In this document: positions 10,525 to 51,690 of the stretch, piece after piece
How the letters are laid out: every line of letters begins with the position of its first letter
Numbering within the stretch: position 1 is the first letter of the stretch
Source: Candidatus Nitrosopumilus sp.
GTDB taxonomy: Archaea; Thermoproteota; Nitrososphaeria; Nitrososphaerales; Nitrosopumilaceae
Direction: 5' to 3'
Length of the DNA stretch: 64,000 nucleotides
Assembly: GCA_029864335.1 (NCBI GenBank)
Contig: JAOTTS010000001.1
Location: 42,338 to 106,337, forward strand
The notes under the pieces: generated by a model
What the model saw: the letters and a program-made list of their open reading frames with translations, nothing else
The model's database searches: none
What the model was told of the DNA's origin: nothing
Made by a program: the position numbers and the translations under genes

Positions 10525-11297
10525 TATGCATTCACCAATTTTTTTACCTGTTCTTGAATGTTGTTGCTTTTCATTATGCTTGAACCAATTAGAAATGCAT
10601 CTGCACCGCACTTTTTTAGATAATTGATGTCATCTGGAGTTTCAATTCCACTCTCAGATAAAATAATTCTTGATTTTTCATATCCTTTAAGGACTTTTTC
10701 TGTGGTTTTTAGATCAATTTCTAATGTGTCTAGATTTCTATTGTTAATTCCAATTATGTCTGCTTCTGTCTTTAGGGCATTTTCAAATTCTTCTTTTGTG
10801 TGAACTTCAAGTAGAATTTTGAGTCCCTGTTTGTGCCCATAACTGATGAATTCATCAATATCTGTAAGGAATTTTTGGTCAAATAGGGATTGAATTAATA
10901 GTATATAATCTGCCCCTATCTTTTTTGCCGCATCAATCTGAATTTTGTCAATCATGATATCTTTCATTAATAGTGGTACATCAACTGCCTGTCTTACTTT
11001 CATGAAAAATTCTGGTGAGCCATTAAACAGATGTGGTTGAGTTAGAATCGATAAAGCTTTAGAACCTCCTGCAATCATCTGGCTTGCGATGCTTACAGGA
11101 TTTGATGTTGTTCTAATTTTTCCAAGGGAAGGTGATGCAAATTTTATTTCAGTTAGTAGCGTTGCATGAGGATTTGTCTTAATCATTTGTACAAAATCTT
11201 TGGTGGATTTTTGTAAATCTATATCAATCTCGTACACTCCATCATCTATTGCCATTTGAGAATTGTTTACTAATTTTCTTAGAATGTTTTCTGCCAT
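10521..11297 (-). CDS. trpC: Indole-3-glycerol phosphate synthase
   Basis: A 258-residue TIM barrel that closes the indole ring. Visible signatures are [11 protein letters not shown] near residues 49-59, LLMKDIMID, and the strand [15 protein letters not shown], with ILSESGI and ADAFLIGSS near the phosphate site. The start ATG shares one base with the trpD stop (TAATG). There is no fused PRAI domain, so TrpF activity is not supplied here. Confidence 0.95.
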
Positions 11298-12337
11298 TAT
11301 ATCATCTCTTTTAGTTTTGAAATATCTCCAGTATCTGCAACAAATTTCTCTAATAATGAAAATGCCTTACCATCTTTAATTGTGTTTAGAGCAATCTCTA
11401 CTCCTTCCTCAAAATTATTTGCAATGTTTGCAACAATTAATCCTCCTGCTGTATTAAGTGCGGTAGTTTCAATCATTGCTTGATTTGCAGTGTTATTTAG
11501 AACTCCTACAAATGATTTTATCGCATCCTCTTTTGTTTGAATTTGAATGTCTTCTAGCTTTGATTTGTGTAGTCCTACCACTTCTGGATCAATTGCATTC
11601 ATCAATACTTTATCATTTCTTAAAACACATACACGGTTAACTGCACTAGTGGAGAATTCATCCATTCCGTCATCTGAACGCACTGTCATAATATTTTCTG
11701 CTCCTTTTCTTTTTAGAATTGCAGGTAGTCTGTCCAGATATTCTATAGAAAAAACTCCTACAAGTTGATTTTTTACCCCAGCGGGATTTGATAGTGGACC
11801 TAGTAGATTAAATGCAGTTCTCTTTCCAAGATGTTTTCTTGCATTTGATACATGCTTCATTGCAGGATGAAATTTTTGAGCAAACATAAAGCAGATGTTG
11901 TGTTTTAGCAAAATTTTTGATATTTCTGCAGGCTCTAGGCTCAAATCATACCCAAAATACTCAAAAATATCTGCACTTCCTGACACTCCCGAACTTGAGC
12001 GATTTCCATGCTTTGCCACGATTCCACCGGCTGCCGCAACTACAAATGATGCTGTGGTTGATACGTTAAATGTCTGAAGCTTATCTCCCCCCGTACCACA
12101 CATGTCAATTATGGTTCCCTTGTTTTTTGTATCAACCTTGAGTGAAAATTCTTGCATTTTATCAAGCATTCCTAATAGTTCATCATCTGTTTCTCCTTTT
12201 TCTGCAAGTTTTGATAGAAACTCTGCATTTTGTTCATCATCTGTTTTTCCTGAAAGAATATCTGTCATGATTAAATTCATCTCATCATAATTCAGATCTG
12301 TCTTTTGCTGTAGTTTTTCAATAATCTCTGAAATCAT
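11297..12337 (-). CDS. trpD: Anthranilate phosphoribosyltransferase
   Basis: This 346-residue protein transfers ribose phosphate from PRPP to anthranilate. The PRPP loop GTGGD is at 81-85, followed by TFNVSTTAS and KHGNRSSSGVSGSAD, and the helical N-terminal domain is typical. The length is normal. Its ATG overlaps the stop of the upstream unrecognised gene as ATGA, so its translation is likely coupled to that gene even though the latter is frameshifted in this sequence. Confidence 0.96.
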   Translation of the reverse strand: MISEIIEKLQQKTDLNYDEMNLIMTDILSGKTDDEQNAEFLSKLAEKGETDDELLGMLDKMQEFSLKVDTKNKGTIIDMCGTGGDKLQTFNVSTTASFVVAAAGGIVAKHGNRSSSGVSGSADIFEYFGYDLSLEPAEISKILLKHNICFMFAQKFHPAMKHVSNARKHLGKRTAFNLLGPLSNPAGVKNQLVGVFSIEYLDRLPAILKRKGAENIMTVRSDDGMDEFSTSAVNRVCVLRNDKVLMNAIDPEVVGLHKSKLEDIQIQTKEDAIKSFVGVLNNTANQAMIETTALNTAGGLIVANIANNFEEGVEIALNTIKDGKAFSLLEKFVADTGDISKLKEMI

Positions 12338-12869
12338 TTTTTGTCTCCTGATTTTGGGTTTCGCTTTATTTCCCCAATAACTGTATCTAGGAATTTTAGT
12401 GTGTCTTTAGGACTTTTTTCAAACTCTTTTTCTGAAAAACTCTCACAAAAAATCCAGTCGTCAAATTTTTTCATATAATTTTGAAAATCAAATGAGATGT
12501 TATTTTCTTTGGAGACATCTCCTATTCCTTTTCCTACATAATAAACAAAAATCGATGCTTCTTTTGGGTTTTCTTTTAGGTATTTTCCTACTGTGTATGG
12601 TTTTGGGTTGTCTGAAATTACTCTATTGTATAAAATCAATTTTTCGATATTCTGCATTGTAGACCCTATTGTAAATGTCAAAAAATTATCCAACCCATTA
12701 ATCTCTTTGTTTAGATCAATTGATTCCAATTTTGTATTTTTTTGGCGCAATGTTCGAATAACATGTGAATAAAATTATCTGGAATGTTTTCATCTGAATA
12801 ATATTTTGTAAATCCATTCACTGAAACAAGTTTTTTTCTATCGGAAAGCAGTTCTGTCAATGTAATCAT
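12334..12869 (-). pseudogene. Unrecognised trp-operon gene, split by a one-base frameshift
   Basis: The first frame runs from ATG 12869 (MITLTELLSDRKKLVSVNGF) to a stop at 12711. A second, overlapping frame carries on to 12334 with 138 codons from a TTG at 12750. They join if the A7 run on the minus strand had eight A, or if the ribosome slipped back one base there, giving about 178 residues. The gene starts 10 bases after trpG and ends in an ATGA overlap with trpD, as expected of a working operon member. It is charged and mostly helical, with no TrpF barrel motifs. Sequencing error, recent mutation or programmed slippage are all possible. Confidence 0.65.
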
Positions 12870-12879
12870 TCCTCACGCT

Positions 12880-13485
12880 CTATTTTGAGCGTGATTTTCT
12901 CCTCTTTACTTGATTTATGAAATTCTCTAGAATCTTTTTGCCATCTTCAGTCATTATGGATTCTGGGTGAAATTGAACTCCTTGAATTAGATATTTTTTA
13001 TGTGTAATTGCCATTACTTCGCCGTCATCATCAGCTGTGGCAGTTATTTGTAAAATATCTGGAATTACTGTTTTGTCTCCAACTAGACTGTGATATCTAG
13101 TTGCTCTAAATGGATTCTTTACATTTTTGAATAACTCTGAACTTGTATGTTTTACAGGACTTGTTTTGCCATGTCTAACGCATCCAGCATTAGTTACTTT
13201 ACCACCAAATGCATGAATGATTCCTTGATGTCCCAAACAAACTCCAAGAATGGGGGTAGTGGGTCCCATGTTTTTGATTACATCTGAGCAAATTCCAAAA
13301 TATTTTTTATCTTCTGGAGTTCCAGGACCTGGAGAAATAATTATTCCGTCATAGTTGTTTTGTTTTATTTGCTCTAGTGAAATTTTGTCATTTCTTATTA
13401 CCTCGCAATTTACTCCTAATTCCCCTAGATACTGTGCAATGTTGTATACAAATGAATCATAATTGTCAATAATTAGAAATTTCAT
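12880..13485 (-). CDS. trpG: Anthranilate synthase component II (glutamine amidotransferase)
   Basis: A 201-residue class I glutamine amidotransferase that feeds ammonia to TrpE. The nucleophile is C83 in LGVCLGHQG, and the His-Glu pair is H173/E175 in FHPES. The oxyanion motif SPGPGTPED is at 51-59. The start overlaps the trpE stop. A pabA role in folate synthesis cannot be excluded by sequence, but the trp operon context favours trpG. Confidence 0.94.
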   Translation of the reverse strand: MKFLIIDNYDSFVYNIAQYLGELGVNCEVIRNDKISLEQIKQNNYDGIIISPGPGTPEDKKYFGICSDVIKNMGPTTPILGVCLGHQGIIHAFGGKVTNAGCVRHGKTSPVKHTSSELFKNVKNPFRATRYHSLVGDKTVIPDILQITATADDDGEVMAITHKKYLIQGVQFHPESIMTEDGKKILENFINQVKRRKSRSK

Positions 13486-14831
13486 TTTGATGCCTCCCTC
13501 AATGCTTGAAGCATTGCTCCAGCTTTGTGTTCTGTCTCTTTGAATTCATTTTTTGCAATTGAATCTGAAACAATTCCTGCACCTGATTGAACAAATCCAT
13601 CATTTCCTTCAATGAATATACTTCTGATTGCAATTGCAAAATCACAACAGCCATTGTATGAGAAATATCCAACTGCTCCTGCATATGGTCCTCTTGCTTC
13701 TGTTTCTAATTCGTCAATAATTTCCATAGCACGAACCTTGGGAGCGCCTGACACTGTCCCAGCAGGAAACACTGCTTGAAACGCATCAAACATGTCCTTT
13801 TCAGGCGATAAATTCCCTATAACATGACTAACTATGTGCTGAACATGACTGAATCGTTTTATCTGCATTAATGATTCTGGATGAACGGTTCCGTATTTGC
13901 AAACTCTACCAATATCGTTTCTGCCCAAATCAACAAGCATTGTGTGCTCTGCCAGTTCTTTTTCATCATGAATTAATTCGTCTGCAAGCTGTTTGTTTTT
14001 TTCTTCATCATTTGTAATTTTTCTAGTTCCTGCAATTGGGAATGTTTCCACTTTATCCTTTGTGATTCTTACTAACATCTCAGGAGATGCACCAATGATT
14101 GTTTTTGTATCTTGTTTTAGATGATACATGTATGGAGATGGATTTAGATTTCGTAATGTTTTGTATAGTGTTAGATTGTCTCCTCGATTTTTAAATGAAA
14201 ATTTTCTAGATAAGACAACCTGAAATATGTCTCCATCATGAATGTATTTTTTTGCCTTGTTTACAATTTCTGAAAACTTTTCTTTATCCATGTTTGGTGT
14301 TACTTCACTTGAATCAAATTCTCCAAATATATCATCATTCATAATTAATTTGTCAAATCTATTTTCATCATGATAAAAGTAGAATAGTTTCTTGTGTAAA
14401 TTGTCATAAAGTATTCCATCATCATAAATTCCAAACTCCATTAATGGTTGTTTTGAATTGTGAGAATCAGCAATATTTTCCACCAATCTTATTGCGTCAT
14501 AGTTTACAACCCCTACTGCTCCTCCCAAATATCGATAACTCTGATCATCTGATTTTCCTAATAGTTTTTTTAGTTCTGAAAATGGATCAGTAGTTCGAAT
14601 GATTTTTGTTTTTCCATCTGAGATGATTTCTACTTTATCAGAATATCCTTTGAGGATTATTTTTGGATTAAATCCCATTACTGATGTTTCAGCTAAAACT
14701 TCAGGACCAGTAAGAGATTCAAAGAGAAATGAATGCGAATAGTTTCTTGAGATTTTATTATAAATTTGAAATTGGTTTTCAGATAAATCTAGGGGTATTA
14801 CTTTTGCTTGAGCATTTCCAAAGGTGTCCAC
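13482..14831 (-). CDS. trpE: Anthranilate synthase component I
   Basis: This 449-residue chorismate-using enzyme makes anthranilate. Signatures visible in its C-terminal half are IGASPEMLVR, FPIAGTRK, DELIHDEKELAEHTMLVDLG, FPAGTVSGAPKVRAMEII and GAVGYFSYNG. It is first in the operon. The start is GTG at 14831. A TATA-like TTTAAATAAT on the minus strand lies about 27-35 bases upstream, so the mRNA may be leaderless or nearly so. A 17-bp palindrome (14931-14947) lies about 100 bases upstream. Confidence 0.96.
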   Translation of the reverse strand: MDTFGNAQAKVIPLDLSENQFQIYNKISRNYSHSFLFESLTGPEVLAETSVMGFNPKIILKGYSDKVEIISDGKTKIIRTTDPFSELKKLLGKSDDQSYRYLGGAVGVVNYDAIRLVENIADSHNSKQPLMEFGIYDDGILYDNLHKKLFYFYHDENRFDKLIMNDDIFGEFDSSEVTPNMDKEKFSEIVNKAKKYIHDGDIFQVVLSRKFSFKNRGDNLTLYKTLRNLNPSPYMYHLKQDTKTIIGASPEMLVRITKDKVETFPIAGTRKITNDEEKNKQLADELIHDEKELAEHTMLVDLGRNDIGRVCKYGTVHPESLMQIKRFSHVQHIVSHVIGNLSPEKDMFDAFQAVFPAGTVSGAPKVRAMEIIDELETEARGPYAGAVGYFSYNGCCDFAIAIRSIFIEGNDGFVQSGAGIVSDSIAKNEFKETEHKAGAMLQALREASK

Positions 14832-29614: not shown

Positions 29615-30396
29615 AAAAATTACCTATTTTATTATCAATTCCACATGGTGGAAGAAAGAAACCTATAGAACTTGATGGACATCTATGTATCACAAATAAA
29701 GATCTTTTTGATGATTCTGATCCTTTTGTAATTGAAATGTATGACTTGGGAGATAAAGTTCAACGTATAATTAAATCAAATATTGCAAGAGCGTTTGTTG
29801 ATCTTAATCGCTCACAAGACGATTTACCTCCTACAAATCCGGATGGTGTGATTAAAAGCTCTACATGTTACAAAAAACCAATTTATCATGAAAGAAAAGA
29901 ACCAGATGATTCTCTAAGGACATTACTACTTGAATTATACTATTTTCCTTATCATAATTCAATTCAAAAAAGTCTTAAAGAATTAGAATTACAATTGTGT
30001 TTGGATTGCCATTCAATGGCATCAATTGCACCTGGAATCTCCCCTGATGCTAAAAATAGTAAAAGACCAAAATTTTGTTTGTCAAATAATGATGGACAAG
30101 CTGCATCTCAGGAAATGATGGAATTGTTGACTGCATGCATTTCAGAATCTTATGGGATTGAAAGAAATGAAATTTCATTAAATGATCCGTTTCATGGTGG
30201 TCATATCACAAAAACATATGGAAACAATCCTGTTCCTTGGATTCAAGTTGAAATGAATAGGGATTTGTATCTAGCAGATCCTTGGTTTGATAAAGAAACA
30301 TTATCTATTGATCCTACACATCTGGAAAAATTGAACAAGCAGTTTGAAAAAACATTAAATCTTTTTTTTAAAAATTTTGAAGGAGCAGATCCTTGA
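29605..30396 (+). CDS. N-formylglutamate amidohydrolase-like protein
   Basis: The key motif LPILLSIPHGGRKKP (zinc His) is encoded near 29620-29660, followed by DLNRS and LDCHSMA and, late on, GGHITKTYG, all typical of N-formylglutamate deformylase-like enzymes. ATG 29737 would cut off the essential IPHGG, so translation must begin upstream. No ATG/GTG/TTG is available there; ATT 29605 inside the end of the gamma-glutamyltransferase gene is the only reasonable candidate. About 263 residues. Its stop overlaps the antiporter's TTG. Confidence 0.75.
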   Translation: MKLEKLPILLSIPHGGRKKPIELDGHLCITNKDLFDDSDPFVIEMYDLGDKVQRIIKSNIARAFVDLNRSQDDLPPTNPDGVIKSSTCYKKPIYHERKEPDDSLRTLLLELYYFPYHNSIQKSLKELELQLCLDCHSMASIAPGISPDAKNSKRPKFCLSNNDGQAASQEMMELLTACISESYGIERNEISLNDPFHGGHITKTYGNNPVPWIQVEMNRDLYLADPWFDKETLSIDPTHLEKLNKQFEKTLNLFFKNFEGADP

Positions 30397-32177
30397 CAGT
30401 AGAGGTCACTCAATTTCTTGCACTTTTAGCATTACTCCTAGGTGGAGGAATGATTGGTGCAGGAATAATGAAAAAGATAAAGTTTCCGACAATTATTGGA
30501 TTTATTTTAATTGGAATGATTGCAGGGCCTTATGGGCTTGGAATTGTAGATGATGTAGAATTAATCAATCTTTTAGCAGAACTGGGAATAATCATTCTTC
30601 TTTTTGTTGTTGGGTTAGAATTCAGCCTTCAAAAATTACGTAAGGCTGGTATGAAAGCAATCACAGTAGGCATGACTGAATTATCAATAATGTTTTTTCT
30701 GGCATACATTGGAGCATTTTCATTTGGATGGTCACATTTAGAAGCACTCTATCTTGCAGGAATATTATCTATTAGCAGTACTGCAATTTCCTTGCGAATA
30801 ATGAGAGATCTTAAACTAGTCAAAACAAAAGAATTTGACACAATAATTACAATTTTAATCGTAGAAGATCTTGCAGCGGTATTACTATTAGTAATTTTGG
30901 GCAATGCATCTGATGGTGCACAACTTGATTTAACAGGAATTGGAATTTTGATTTTACAAAGTTTGACTTTTTTTGTTATTGCGTTAGCCCTTGGAATTAA
31001 ATTAATCCCTAAATTACTAGAGAAGATACACGGATTAGATATTCCTGAAGGTCCGTTCATCACAGCACTTGCTTTGGGATTTGGTTTGGCAGTTTTGGCG
31101 CATTTTCTAGGTCAAAGTTCTGCCATTGGAGCATTTATCATGGGAATGATAATTGCATCATCAAAACATTCTGAAAATATTACAAAAAAAATTCTTCCAT
31201 TAAGGGACTTTTTTGGTGTAATCTTTTTTGTATCAATTGGAATGTTGGTAAACATTATGACAATTCCTGATGTTGTTTTAATTTCAATTCCAATAATAAT
31301 TTTAGCTGTTATTGGAAAATTTGTTGGGAATTTCTTTGGCGCATCAATTGGTGGGCATGGAATGATTAGTTCATCAACAATTGGTTCGGTTATGGTTCCT
31401 AGAGGCGAATTCTCCTTTATTATGGCAAAACAGGCAGTAGATAGTGGCTCTGTTAAAGATACTTTGTATCCTGTTACCATGCTTGTAACATTGGCTACCA
31501 TGTTTTGTATGCCATTATTGCTAAAAATATTGCCTACACTTGCAGATAAAAAAAGTCACATTCCAATTGGCATCCTAAACCCAATTTACATTGTTGGAAA
31601 ATTCTTTAACAATTTAATGACTACCCCTGATGAATCCAGCCAATTCAATCAAATTCTAAAAAAACACGGACCAAAACTCTTTGTCAATCTAATGATCGTG
31701 ATTGCAATCCTTGCTTTAATTGATTACTTTAATGATGATATAGTGACAATAATTTCTACAATAGGAATTCCCCTTCCAATTGATCCTGAAATCCTATTGA
31801 CTATTATTAGCATATTACTAATCATATACCCTGTAATTGCAATGTTAGGTAAGATAGAAAATTTTGTCACAAATATCTCCGATATATTATCTACAAAACT
31901 AATTCCTGCTGATACACAAAAACTAGAAGAAAAACCTCTTCATAGATTACTCCGAAATATTTTCTTTACCGGTTTTGTTTTGATAATTATAGCTTTAATT
32001 CAACCCTATGTGGGAGATTTAGTTGAATTACCATTTTTACCATTCCTTATATCTGGAGTAGGACTCACCATTGCAATAATTTTGATAGCTGACTCTGTGT
32101 TTGTATTTCAAAAATTATCTCATGGCCACATAATGGAAAGCTTGATGAAAGAAGACGAAACTTCTGAGCCTGAATAA
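30393..32177 (+). CDS. Kef/CPA2-type monovalent cation:proton antiporter
   Basis: A 594-residue integral membrane protein with about 12 helices in the CPA2 domain (FVVGLEFSL, LSISSTAISLRI, GFGLAVLAHFLGQSSAIGAF) and a C-terminal block of three or four additional helices ending in an acidic tail. It would exchange Na+ or K+ for H+. There is no TrkA/RCK domain. TTG 30393 overlaps the previous stop as TTGA, so it is translationally coupled to the amidohydrolase-like gene. Confidence 0.85.
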   Translation: MTVEVTQFLALLALLLGGGMIGAGIMKKIKFPTIIGFILIGMIAGPYGLGIVDDVELINLLAELGIIILLFVVGLEFSLQKLRKAGMKAITVGMTELSIMFFLAYIGAFSFGWSHLEALYLAGILSISSTAISLRIMRDLKLVKTKEFDTIITILIVEDLAAVLLLVILGNASDGAQLDLTGIGILILQSLTFFVIALALGIKLIPKLLEKIHGLDIPEGPFITALALGFGLAVLAHFLGQSSAIGAFIMGMIIASSKHSENITKKILPLRDFFGVIFFVSIGMLVNIMTIPDVVLISIPIIILAVIGKFVGNFFGASIGGHGMISSSTIGSVMVPRGEFSFIMAKQAVDSGSVKDTLYPVTMLVTLATMFCMPLLLKILPTLADKKSHIPIGILNPIYIVGKFFNNLMTTPDESSQFNQILKKHGPKLFVNLMIVIAILALIDYFNDDIVTIISTIGIPLPIDPEILLTIISILLIIYPVIAMLGKIENFVTNISDILSTKLIPADTQKLEEKPLHRLLRNIFFTGFVLIIIALIQPYVGDLVELPFLPFLISGVGLTIAIILIADSVFVFQKLSHGHIMESLMKEDETSEPE

Positions 32178-34442: not shown

Positions 34443-34865
34443 ATGACCCTTGAAAGTAAATCTATTCAAAAATATTGGTCAATTCAACAATTTATCGGAA
34501 AAAGCGTTTTTGATAGTAAAGGACAGGGTTGTGGACAAATTAAATCCGTTCTAATTGATCCTCAAAAATTTTCAATATCTGGAATTTTGGTAAAAAAAAG
34601 ACTATCAAAAGAATACTTTTTGTCACAAGACTATTTTGAGGAATTTAATGAATCTGGACTCAGTTTAAACTCCATTCCAATAAAACCTGGAGATAAAGTT
34701 GCAGATGTTGATGGGAAAAACATAGGCCGAGTAATCCAAATAAATCTAAATCCTGACACAAACAAACTTGAATCCCTTGAGATAAAATCTGGTTTTAAAT
34801 CAGAGATTATTTCAACTGATAGAATTATTGCAGTTGGCGAAAAAATTAAAATCAAATTATTCTAA
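34443..34865 (+). CDS. PRC-barrel domain protein
   Basis: A 140-residue protein with two PRC-barrel-like halves: IGKSVFDSKGQGCGQIKSV at about 19-37, and PGDKVADVDGKNIGRVIQIN near 80-99. PRC-barrels serve in ribosome maturation and photosynthetic reaction centres, and as sensors; the role here is unknown. Monocistronic between spacers. Confidence 0.75.
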   Translation: MTLESKSIQKYWSIQQFIGKSVFDSKGQGCGQIKSVLIDPQKFSISGILVKKRLSKEYFLSQDYFEEFNESGLSLNSIPIKPGDKVADVDGKNIGRVIQINLNPDTNKLESLEIKSGFKSEIISTDRIIAVGEKIKIKLF

Positions 34866-34953
34866 ATAAACAATCTTTTAGAATTTATGAATAAATCATG
34901 TTTTTTTAAATATTTTTCCATTATCTTTATTTACTTTATACATGATTTATTAT

Positions 34954-35205
34954 ATGCAAGCATACATTTTGATAAATTGTAATACTGGTATGGAAACTAC
35001 GCTAATTTCCGAATTAAAAGAATTGCCTGAAATAATTGAAATTAATGGTGTATGGGGAAAATATGATGTTTTTATTAAAATCTCCACATCTGACCCTAAT
35101 GGGGTTGAACAGATCATCAAAAGACTACGAAATCACCCTGATGTTGTAGAGACCTATACTATGCACGTATTATATGGTCAAGGTGGAACAATCGATAATG
35201 AATGA
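34954..35205 (+). CDS. Stand-alone Lrp/AsnC ligand-binding (RAM) domain
   Basis: About 83 residues from ATG 34954 (longer start at 34942) with the RAM signature: AYILINCNTGMETTLISELK, then EINGVWGKYDVFIKI and VVETYTMHVLYG. There is no DNA-binding domain. Such single RAM proteins bind amino acids or pair with full Lrp regulators. The end overlaps the start of the next small gene. Confidence 0.82.
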   Translation: MQAYILINCNTGMETTLISELKELPEIIEINGVWGKYDVFIKISTSDPNGVEQIIKRLRNHPDVVETYTMHVLYGQGGTIDNE

Positions 35206-35413
35206 TAATTCAACTCAGGAAATAATTGATTTCATCAATATCATGTATCATGAACAAGTACCGGGTCCAGTAAAATTTGTAGTAAAAAGAAAAGCAAAGA
35301 AAATTGAAAAATTAAGCCTTGATGATTTTCCTAAATCATTTAGATCTTGTACTGTTGAAGAATTGATTCTTATTCTAAAAGACGCTCATGATAAAAAACT
35401 CTTACACTTTTAA
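35198..35413 (+). CDS. Small hypothetical protein overlapping RAM gene
   Basis: A 71-residue protein from ATG 35198, which overlaps the RAM gene's stop by 8 bases. It is basic in the middle (FVVKRKAKKIEKLS) and ends in a helical stretch. No family recognised; the overlap suggests co-translation with the RAM protein. Confidence 0.55.
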   Translation: MNDNSTQEIIDFINIMYHEQVPGPVKFVVKRKAKKIEKLSLDDFPKSFRSCTVEELILILKDAHDKKLLHF

Positions 35414-37176: not shown

Positions 37177-37581
37177 TTAATCGTTTCTAATTTTGTCTTT
37201 TTTTATTCTCTTGTCAAAAATCAGATATGCAGTAAGATCCCCTGTAATGTTAACCATTGTACTTGTCATGTCTAATATTCCATCTACCACGAGCAAAAGT
37301 ACTACTGAGACAGGAGGAATTCCTCAAATGATTGATACAAAAATTAACGATATAATTATCATTTGAATGATCTTGAGAAACAGATTATCTGGAATTGATA
37401 ACCAATCAGTTATCAGTTCAGATGTATTTTTTTCAGCAAAGTCTATCCCTAGGGCTAAAATTACTCCTATAGCTAATCCTAGGAATAAAGCAGAAATAAC
37501 TTGAGCTTAAAGTTTTTTCTTTATTAAATAACTAATTTGAGGAATGGGTACTTGAAAGACGTGGTTACCACTATTCATCAT
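37177..37581 (-). pseudogene. Sodium:dicarboxylate symporter remnant with the middle missing
   Basis: Read on the minus strand from ATG 37581, the N-terminal piece QVISALFLGLAIGVILALG and DNLFLKIIQMIIISLIF leads into a TGA and then directly into GIPPVSVVLLLVVDGILDM and NITGDLTAYLIFDK, which is the C-terminal part of DAACS-family glutamate/dicarboxylate carriers. The family has about 400 residues; here about 130 remain, so a large internal deletion occurred. An in-frame TAA also breaks the N-terminal part. Confidence 0.6.
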
Positions 37582-51379: not shown

Positions 51380-51453
51380 ATTGAATTAATCACAATCTCA
51401 AATTTATGGTTGTCTTTAAATCACTGATTGAACTGGAATTGTAATATTCTTTT

Positions 51454-51690
51454 TCACAATTCTTTATTTTTTAACAGTGTGAATTCTGCAATTATTACTG
51501 AAATCAATCCTGTTCCAACTCCAGAGTATAGCACTCCGTGAGGCGGTGTGAAAAATGTCTCAGGATCCCCTTAATTGTTGACTGGTAATGTCTCATCTAC
51601 CTCCCCATGTCTGTAAAATTGTTCCAAACATGGCAATTATTAGAACAATTATGATTAGTTTTGATGACAATACTATAATTTTCTTAATTT
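51454..51690 (-). pseudogene. Decayed integral membrane protein
   Basis: Minus-strand hydrophobic stretches (LIIIVLIIAMFGTILQTWGG and HGVLYSGVGTGLISVIIAEF) are joined through an in-frame TGA and a shift between frames. The second, starting PETFFTPPHGVLY, reads like a thaumarchaeal multi-helix membrane protein. The N-terminus has no clear start. Confidence 0.4.

Follow-up and report, generated by a model that had tools for sequence, protein, structure and literature searches.

Genes of the dnaX type, and the genes of IS elements that depend on -1 frameshifting, are built of two overlapping frames in -1 relation that meet in an A-run. In A+T-rich prokaryotes, pseudogenes also form by homopolymer contraction: one base is lost from an A-run, typically in a replication-slippage event, while the orthologues of relatives stay intact, replacements are relaxed and near relatives carry independent lesions. 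Here we analyze a window of 64,000 nucleotides from the genome of a marine archaeon, Candidatus Nitrosopumilus, in which an extra gene, divided between two such overlapping frames, lies in the trp operon among genes of canonical Trp enzymes (the full set being TrpE, G, D, C, B and A plus TrpF). It shares their operon and probably their transcript; unlike them, it matches no Trp family, as an earlier note on this DNA had also held, and it is absent from most of the trp operons of the genus that we checked. Our analysis leads us to conclude that the window's genome very probably carries a real, recent and lineage-specific pseudogene. We see no essential difference from the pseudogenes that arise by homopolymer contraction, with which it shares the one-base loss, the intact orthologues and the independent lesions in near relatives, and perhaps the relaxed replacements; the window's gene sits in a biosynthetic operon whose other genes are intact.

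On inspection of the sequence, trpG, the frames ORF1 and ORF2, and trpD follow one another on the minus strand of the trp operon. The flanking genes were identified with Pfam, all on the minus strand: trpE, anthranilate synthase component I (13482..14831; PF00425 and PF04715); trpG, anthranilate synthase component II, a GATase (12880..13485; PF00117, 3e-60); and trpD, anthranilate phosphoribosyltransferase (11297..12337; PF00591 and PF02885). ORF1, the 5' piece of the broken gene (12711..12869, minus strand), runs for 52 amino acids from ATG to TAA, and ORF2, the 3' piece (12334..12750, minus strand), for 138. The two overlap in -1 relation and meet in an A7 run at 12737..12743 (minus strand), read in the zero frame as GCC AAA AAA ATA. 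The ATG of ORF1 lies 10 bases past the end of trpG, the stop of ORF2 overlaps the start of trpD (ATGA), and an AGGAG motif stands just before the trpD ATG, within the 3' end of the broken gene. Both the joining of the frames across the A7 run and this tight packing had been described in the earlier note, and both are borne out.

The relatives show what the two frames correspond to. Among the 95 genomes of the same genus that were searched, six (G031, G041, G052, G106, G122 and G134) hold an intact copy, each a single frame of 172-175 codons between trpG and trpD. The joined product is encoded by a single frame at this very place in six genomes, so the split gene is more than a chance arrangement. 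Residues 4-44 of ORF1 align to the intact homologues, its last 8 residues being out of frame; ORF2 alone is 70-81% identical to three of the homologues, with similarity throughout and 138 codons without stops. The homologue records, from an alignment-based scan of genome contigs, include Nitrosopumilus sp. LS_AOA and the thaumarchaeal isolate NORP47; a scan of genome contigs with one query sequence gave no match.

Compared with the intact orthologues, the window's copy has two disabling lesions. The first is A7 for A8: four intact genomes (G031, G052, G122 and G134) have A8 at the corresponding run, and because these are the intact relatives nearest in the operon tree, the window is one base short. 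G106 and G041 have A7 in another codon context (GAA AAA AAT), and there the frame is kept. The second is the start: the codon at which the relatives begin (ATGACAGAA) is TTG at 12860 in the window (12858..12860, minus strand). Upstream of it, only one base beyond a GAGGA motif, stands the ATG at 12869, which the relatives do not use as a start. The A-run is the single frame-disrupting lesion, and no further in-frame stop is present.

Two frames in -1 relation that meet in an A-run might instead imply that a functional gene yields the full protein, either by a programmed -1 ribosomal frameshift or because transcription slips at the run. Several observations argue against this. The zero frame does not place the tandem-slip motif A AAA AAA in register, so the A7 run offers no correctly phased slippery heptamer of the form X XXY YYZ; the downstream RNA folds no better than shuffled sequences (z = -0.80, for folds free of pseudoknots); and the relatives encode the protein without a shift, so that the split is not conserved among homologues. 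In each of these respects the locus is unlike dnaX-type and IS-element genes. Moreover, A7 runs are common in normal genes here. We therefore regard either process as very improbable. Less credible still are two functional smaller proteins, the second translated by reinitiation at the TTG at 12750 or from an internal ATG. ORF2 does keep its 138 stop-free codons and matches homologues over its whole length, as two working proteins would lead one to expect, but no Shine-Dalgarno-like motif precedes the TTG at 12750, and the search of other trp operons that had been advised turned up no homologue split at the A7 point.

The nearest relatives instead tell of decay. In G013 (L020), which the tree places as sister to the window's genome, the copy keeps 79 codons and has lost 96 internally, with both ends retained and joined across the deletion. 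The breakpoints, located in the intact copies of G052 and G031, fall in a short repeat that encodes -IP and reads CATTCCA or CATCCCA; because both breakpoints lie in this repeat, recombination or slippage between short direct repeats is a likely cause of the deletion. A second relative (G039, L021) retains 53 codons after an internal deletion of about 120. Both deletions are in frame, and the trpD start is kept. Because three close relatives, the window's genome, G013 and G039, carry three different lesions, the comparison of sequences points to repeated loss of the gene. Equally, because two close relatives broke the same gene in other ways, the window's lesion would represent ordinary gene loss, not a programmed frameshift. 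The truncated L020 (G013) and L021 (G039) copies retain the frame, the trpD overlap and the TCAGGAGA motif before trpD, features that may reflect selection to preserve trpD translation.

We also looked at the selection acting on the gene. These tests were chosen after the alignment had been seen, and their P values are to be read as guides only. Intact pairs are under purifying selection, with dN/dS of 0.05 for G052/G031 and 0.10-0.23 for the others. Between the window's genome (G000) and G013, dN/dS is 0.45 for the gene versus 0.08-0.11 for trpE, G, D and C. Synonymous divergence is alike (dS 0.26 for the gene, 0.20-0.35 for its neighbors), and the difference lies in dN, which at 0.117 is 3 to 6.5 times higher than in the flanking genes (0.018-0.036). 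Over the same 79 codons, the contrast of G000/G013 with G052/G031 gave P = 0.015, and that with G052/G106 was not significant (P = 0.23). Counts of lineage-specific nonsynonymous and synonymous changes were no higher in G000 (17:10) than in the intact G122/G134 (14:7). The replacements specific to G000 are, however, more radical (P = 0.0006): their mean BLOSUM62 score is -0.68, and the means for two intact lineages are +1.06 and +0.52. This radical pattern counts further against a functional frameshifted gene and against two functional proteins.

An error of sequencing or assembly, in an organism that in fact has A8 and an intact gene, deserves more weight than either of those readings. All that disrupts the frame is a difference of one base in a homopolymer, the classic type of error and at the kind of site where sequencing errors also concentrate, and the remaining frame is open, with no other stop. 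We therefore compared the whole contig of 123,593 bases with 320 kb of G013, so that the error-rate test covers that contig. No other homopolymer frameshift was found among the 78 G013 genes matched on it. The 84 intact orthologues, 62.5 kb in all, contain 88 runs at least seven bases long, 68 of them exactly seven; every one is in frame, implying that the error rate at such runs is low on this contig. Six G013 ORFs gave multi-piece matches; five of these alignments were read, the sixth being antisense to one of them. The five represent either genes that decayed earlier, bearing stops and multiple changes, or cases that are hard to read; in none does a lone homopolymer indel interrupt a gene that is intact elsewhere. 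The radical replacements, the lost ATG and the independent breakage of the gene in the sister genome also speak against an error, which we consider improbable. We infer that the lesion is in the organism's DNA and does not belong to the assembly alone. Of the explanations put forward in the earlier note, recent mutation is therefore the one we favor; programmed -1 frameshifting is not supported, and sequencing error is unlikely. The puzzle posed by the two frames is thus most likely resolved as ordinary gene decay, and a comparative test of this kind separates mutation, sequencing error and programmed frameshifting.

The history of the pseudogene might be reconstructed as follows. Two lineages of the genus have, in the trpG-trpD interval, an accessory, lineage-restricted gene of about 175 codons. 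In the window's lineage the ancestral A8 run would have become A7 by loss of one A, presumably through slippage, and the start ATG would have changed to TTG. Translation would then stop after about 50 residues. The AGGAG motif ahead of the trpD ATG, within the 3' end of the broken gene, should still allow trpD to be translated, and trpD expression is probably unaffected.

To describe the wider distribution, we inspected the junction of trpG with trpD across 40 further genomes of the genus. In 8 of them the gene is present, whole or as a remnant, and in the remaining 32 trpG abuts or overlaps trpD. In a tree built from concatenated TrpE, TrpG and TrpD, the genomes with the gene fall apart into a group of seven (the window's genome, G013, G039, G122, G134, G052 and G031) and, elsewhere, the pair G106/G041. 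As the tree is rooted, support for the node joining exactly those seven is weak (48); the branch that parts them from the rest is long and, in the printed tree, strongly supported. Between the two lineages, dS is 0.8-1.3 for the gene versus 0.8-1.7 for trpE, G, D and C. Because its dS is similar to that of the flanking trp genes, the gene has probably not moved recently on its own, and a recent separate transfer between the two lineages is unsupported. Ancient presence followed by many losses, or an old transfer of the operon segment, is possible. Outside the genus, in 400 genomes of the class, nothing was found beyond matches near E = 1e-3, which we take as chance. Weak matches in ORFs of 408-414 residues (G008, G053 and G189) were set aside; the one in G008 sits in a protein that, judged by eye, is glycosyltransferase-like, and is likewise attributed to chance. 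A tblastn search against plasmids gave no match.

What might the intact protein do? It matches no family in PADLOC and none over the cut-off in Pfam or NCBIfam; the ORF1 and ORF2 pieces have no Pfam match. Matches in PHROGs are weak (best E 0.0044, function unknown), those to PDB sequences are weak and none is convincing, and the structure predicted for an intact homologue (the L084 protein, with the window's fragments) has a mean pLDDT of 39.6, an unusable model. Literature searches returned nothing on this operon. Judging by its place in the operon, the intact protein may act as an optional helper or regulator at the TrpE/G-TrpD step. More specifically, and only tentatively, it could be an archaeal protein, so far undescribed, with an assisting or regulatory part in the first tryptophan steps (TrpE/G and TrpD), maintained by purifying selection in two lineages and repeatedly lost in one. 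The remaining interest lies in the gene family itself, which is unnamed, taxonomically restricted and set within a conserved biosynthetic operon; the close relatives are natural knock-outs, so the role of the gene is testable by comparison.

Of the trp genes, the window's operon contains E, G, D, C, B and A, and no F. TrpF (phosphoribosylanthranilate isomerase, PF00697) has no match in the window's genome and 18 sampled genomes of the genus (0/19); from the order's other families, 7 of the 12 genomes do have one, as do all 14 controls. Replacement of a missing trpF by the extra gene was considered and rejected: none of the sampled members of the genus gave a trpF match, and the extra gene is missing from most of the genus.

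Finally, the comparison with G013 indicates that gene decay in the window's genome extends beyond the trp operon. Counterparts of G013 genes that have decayed through frameshifts, stops or large deletions lie at about 29840-30952, 34759-35237, 79517-79894 and 93785-94007 of the contig, the last two corresponding to about 37180-37557 and 51448-51670 of the window. Judged by eye, the decayed genes include one that is asparagine-synthase-like and one that is dicarboxylate-symporter-like.
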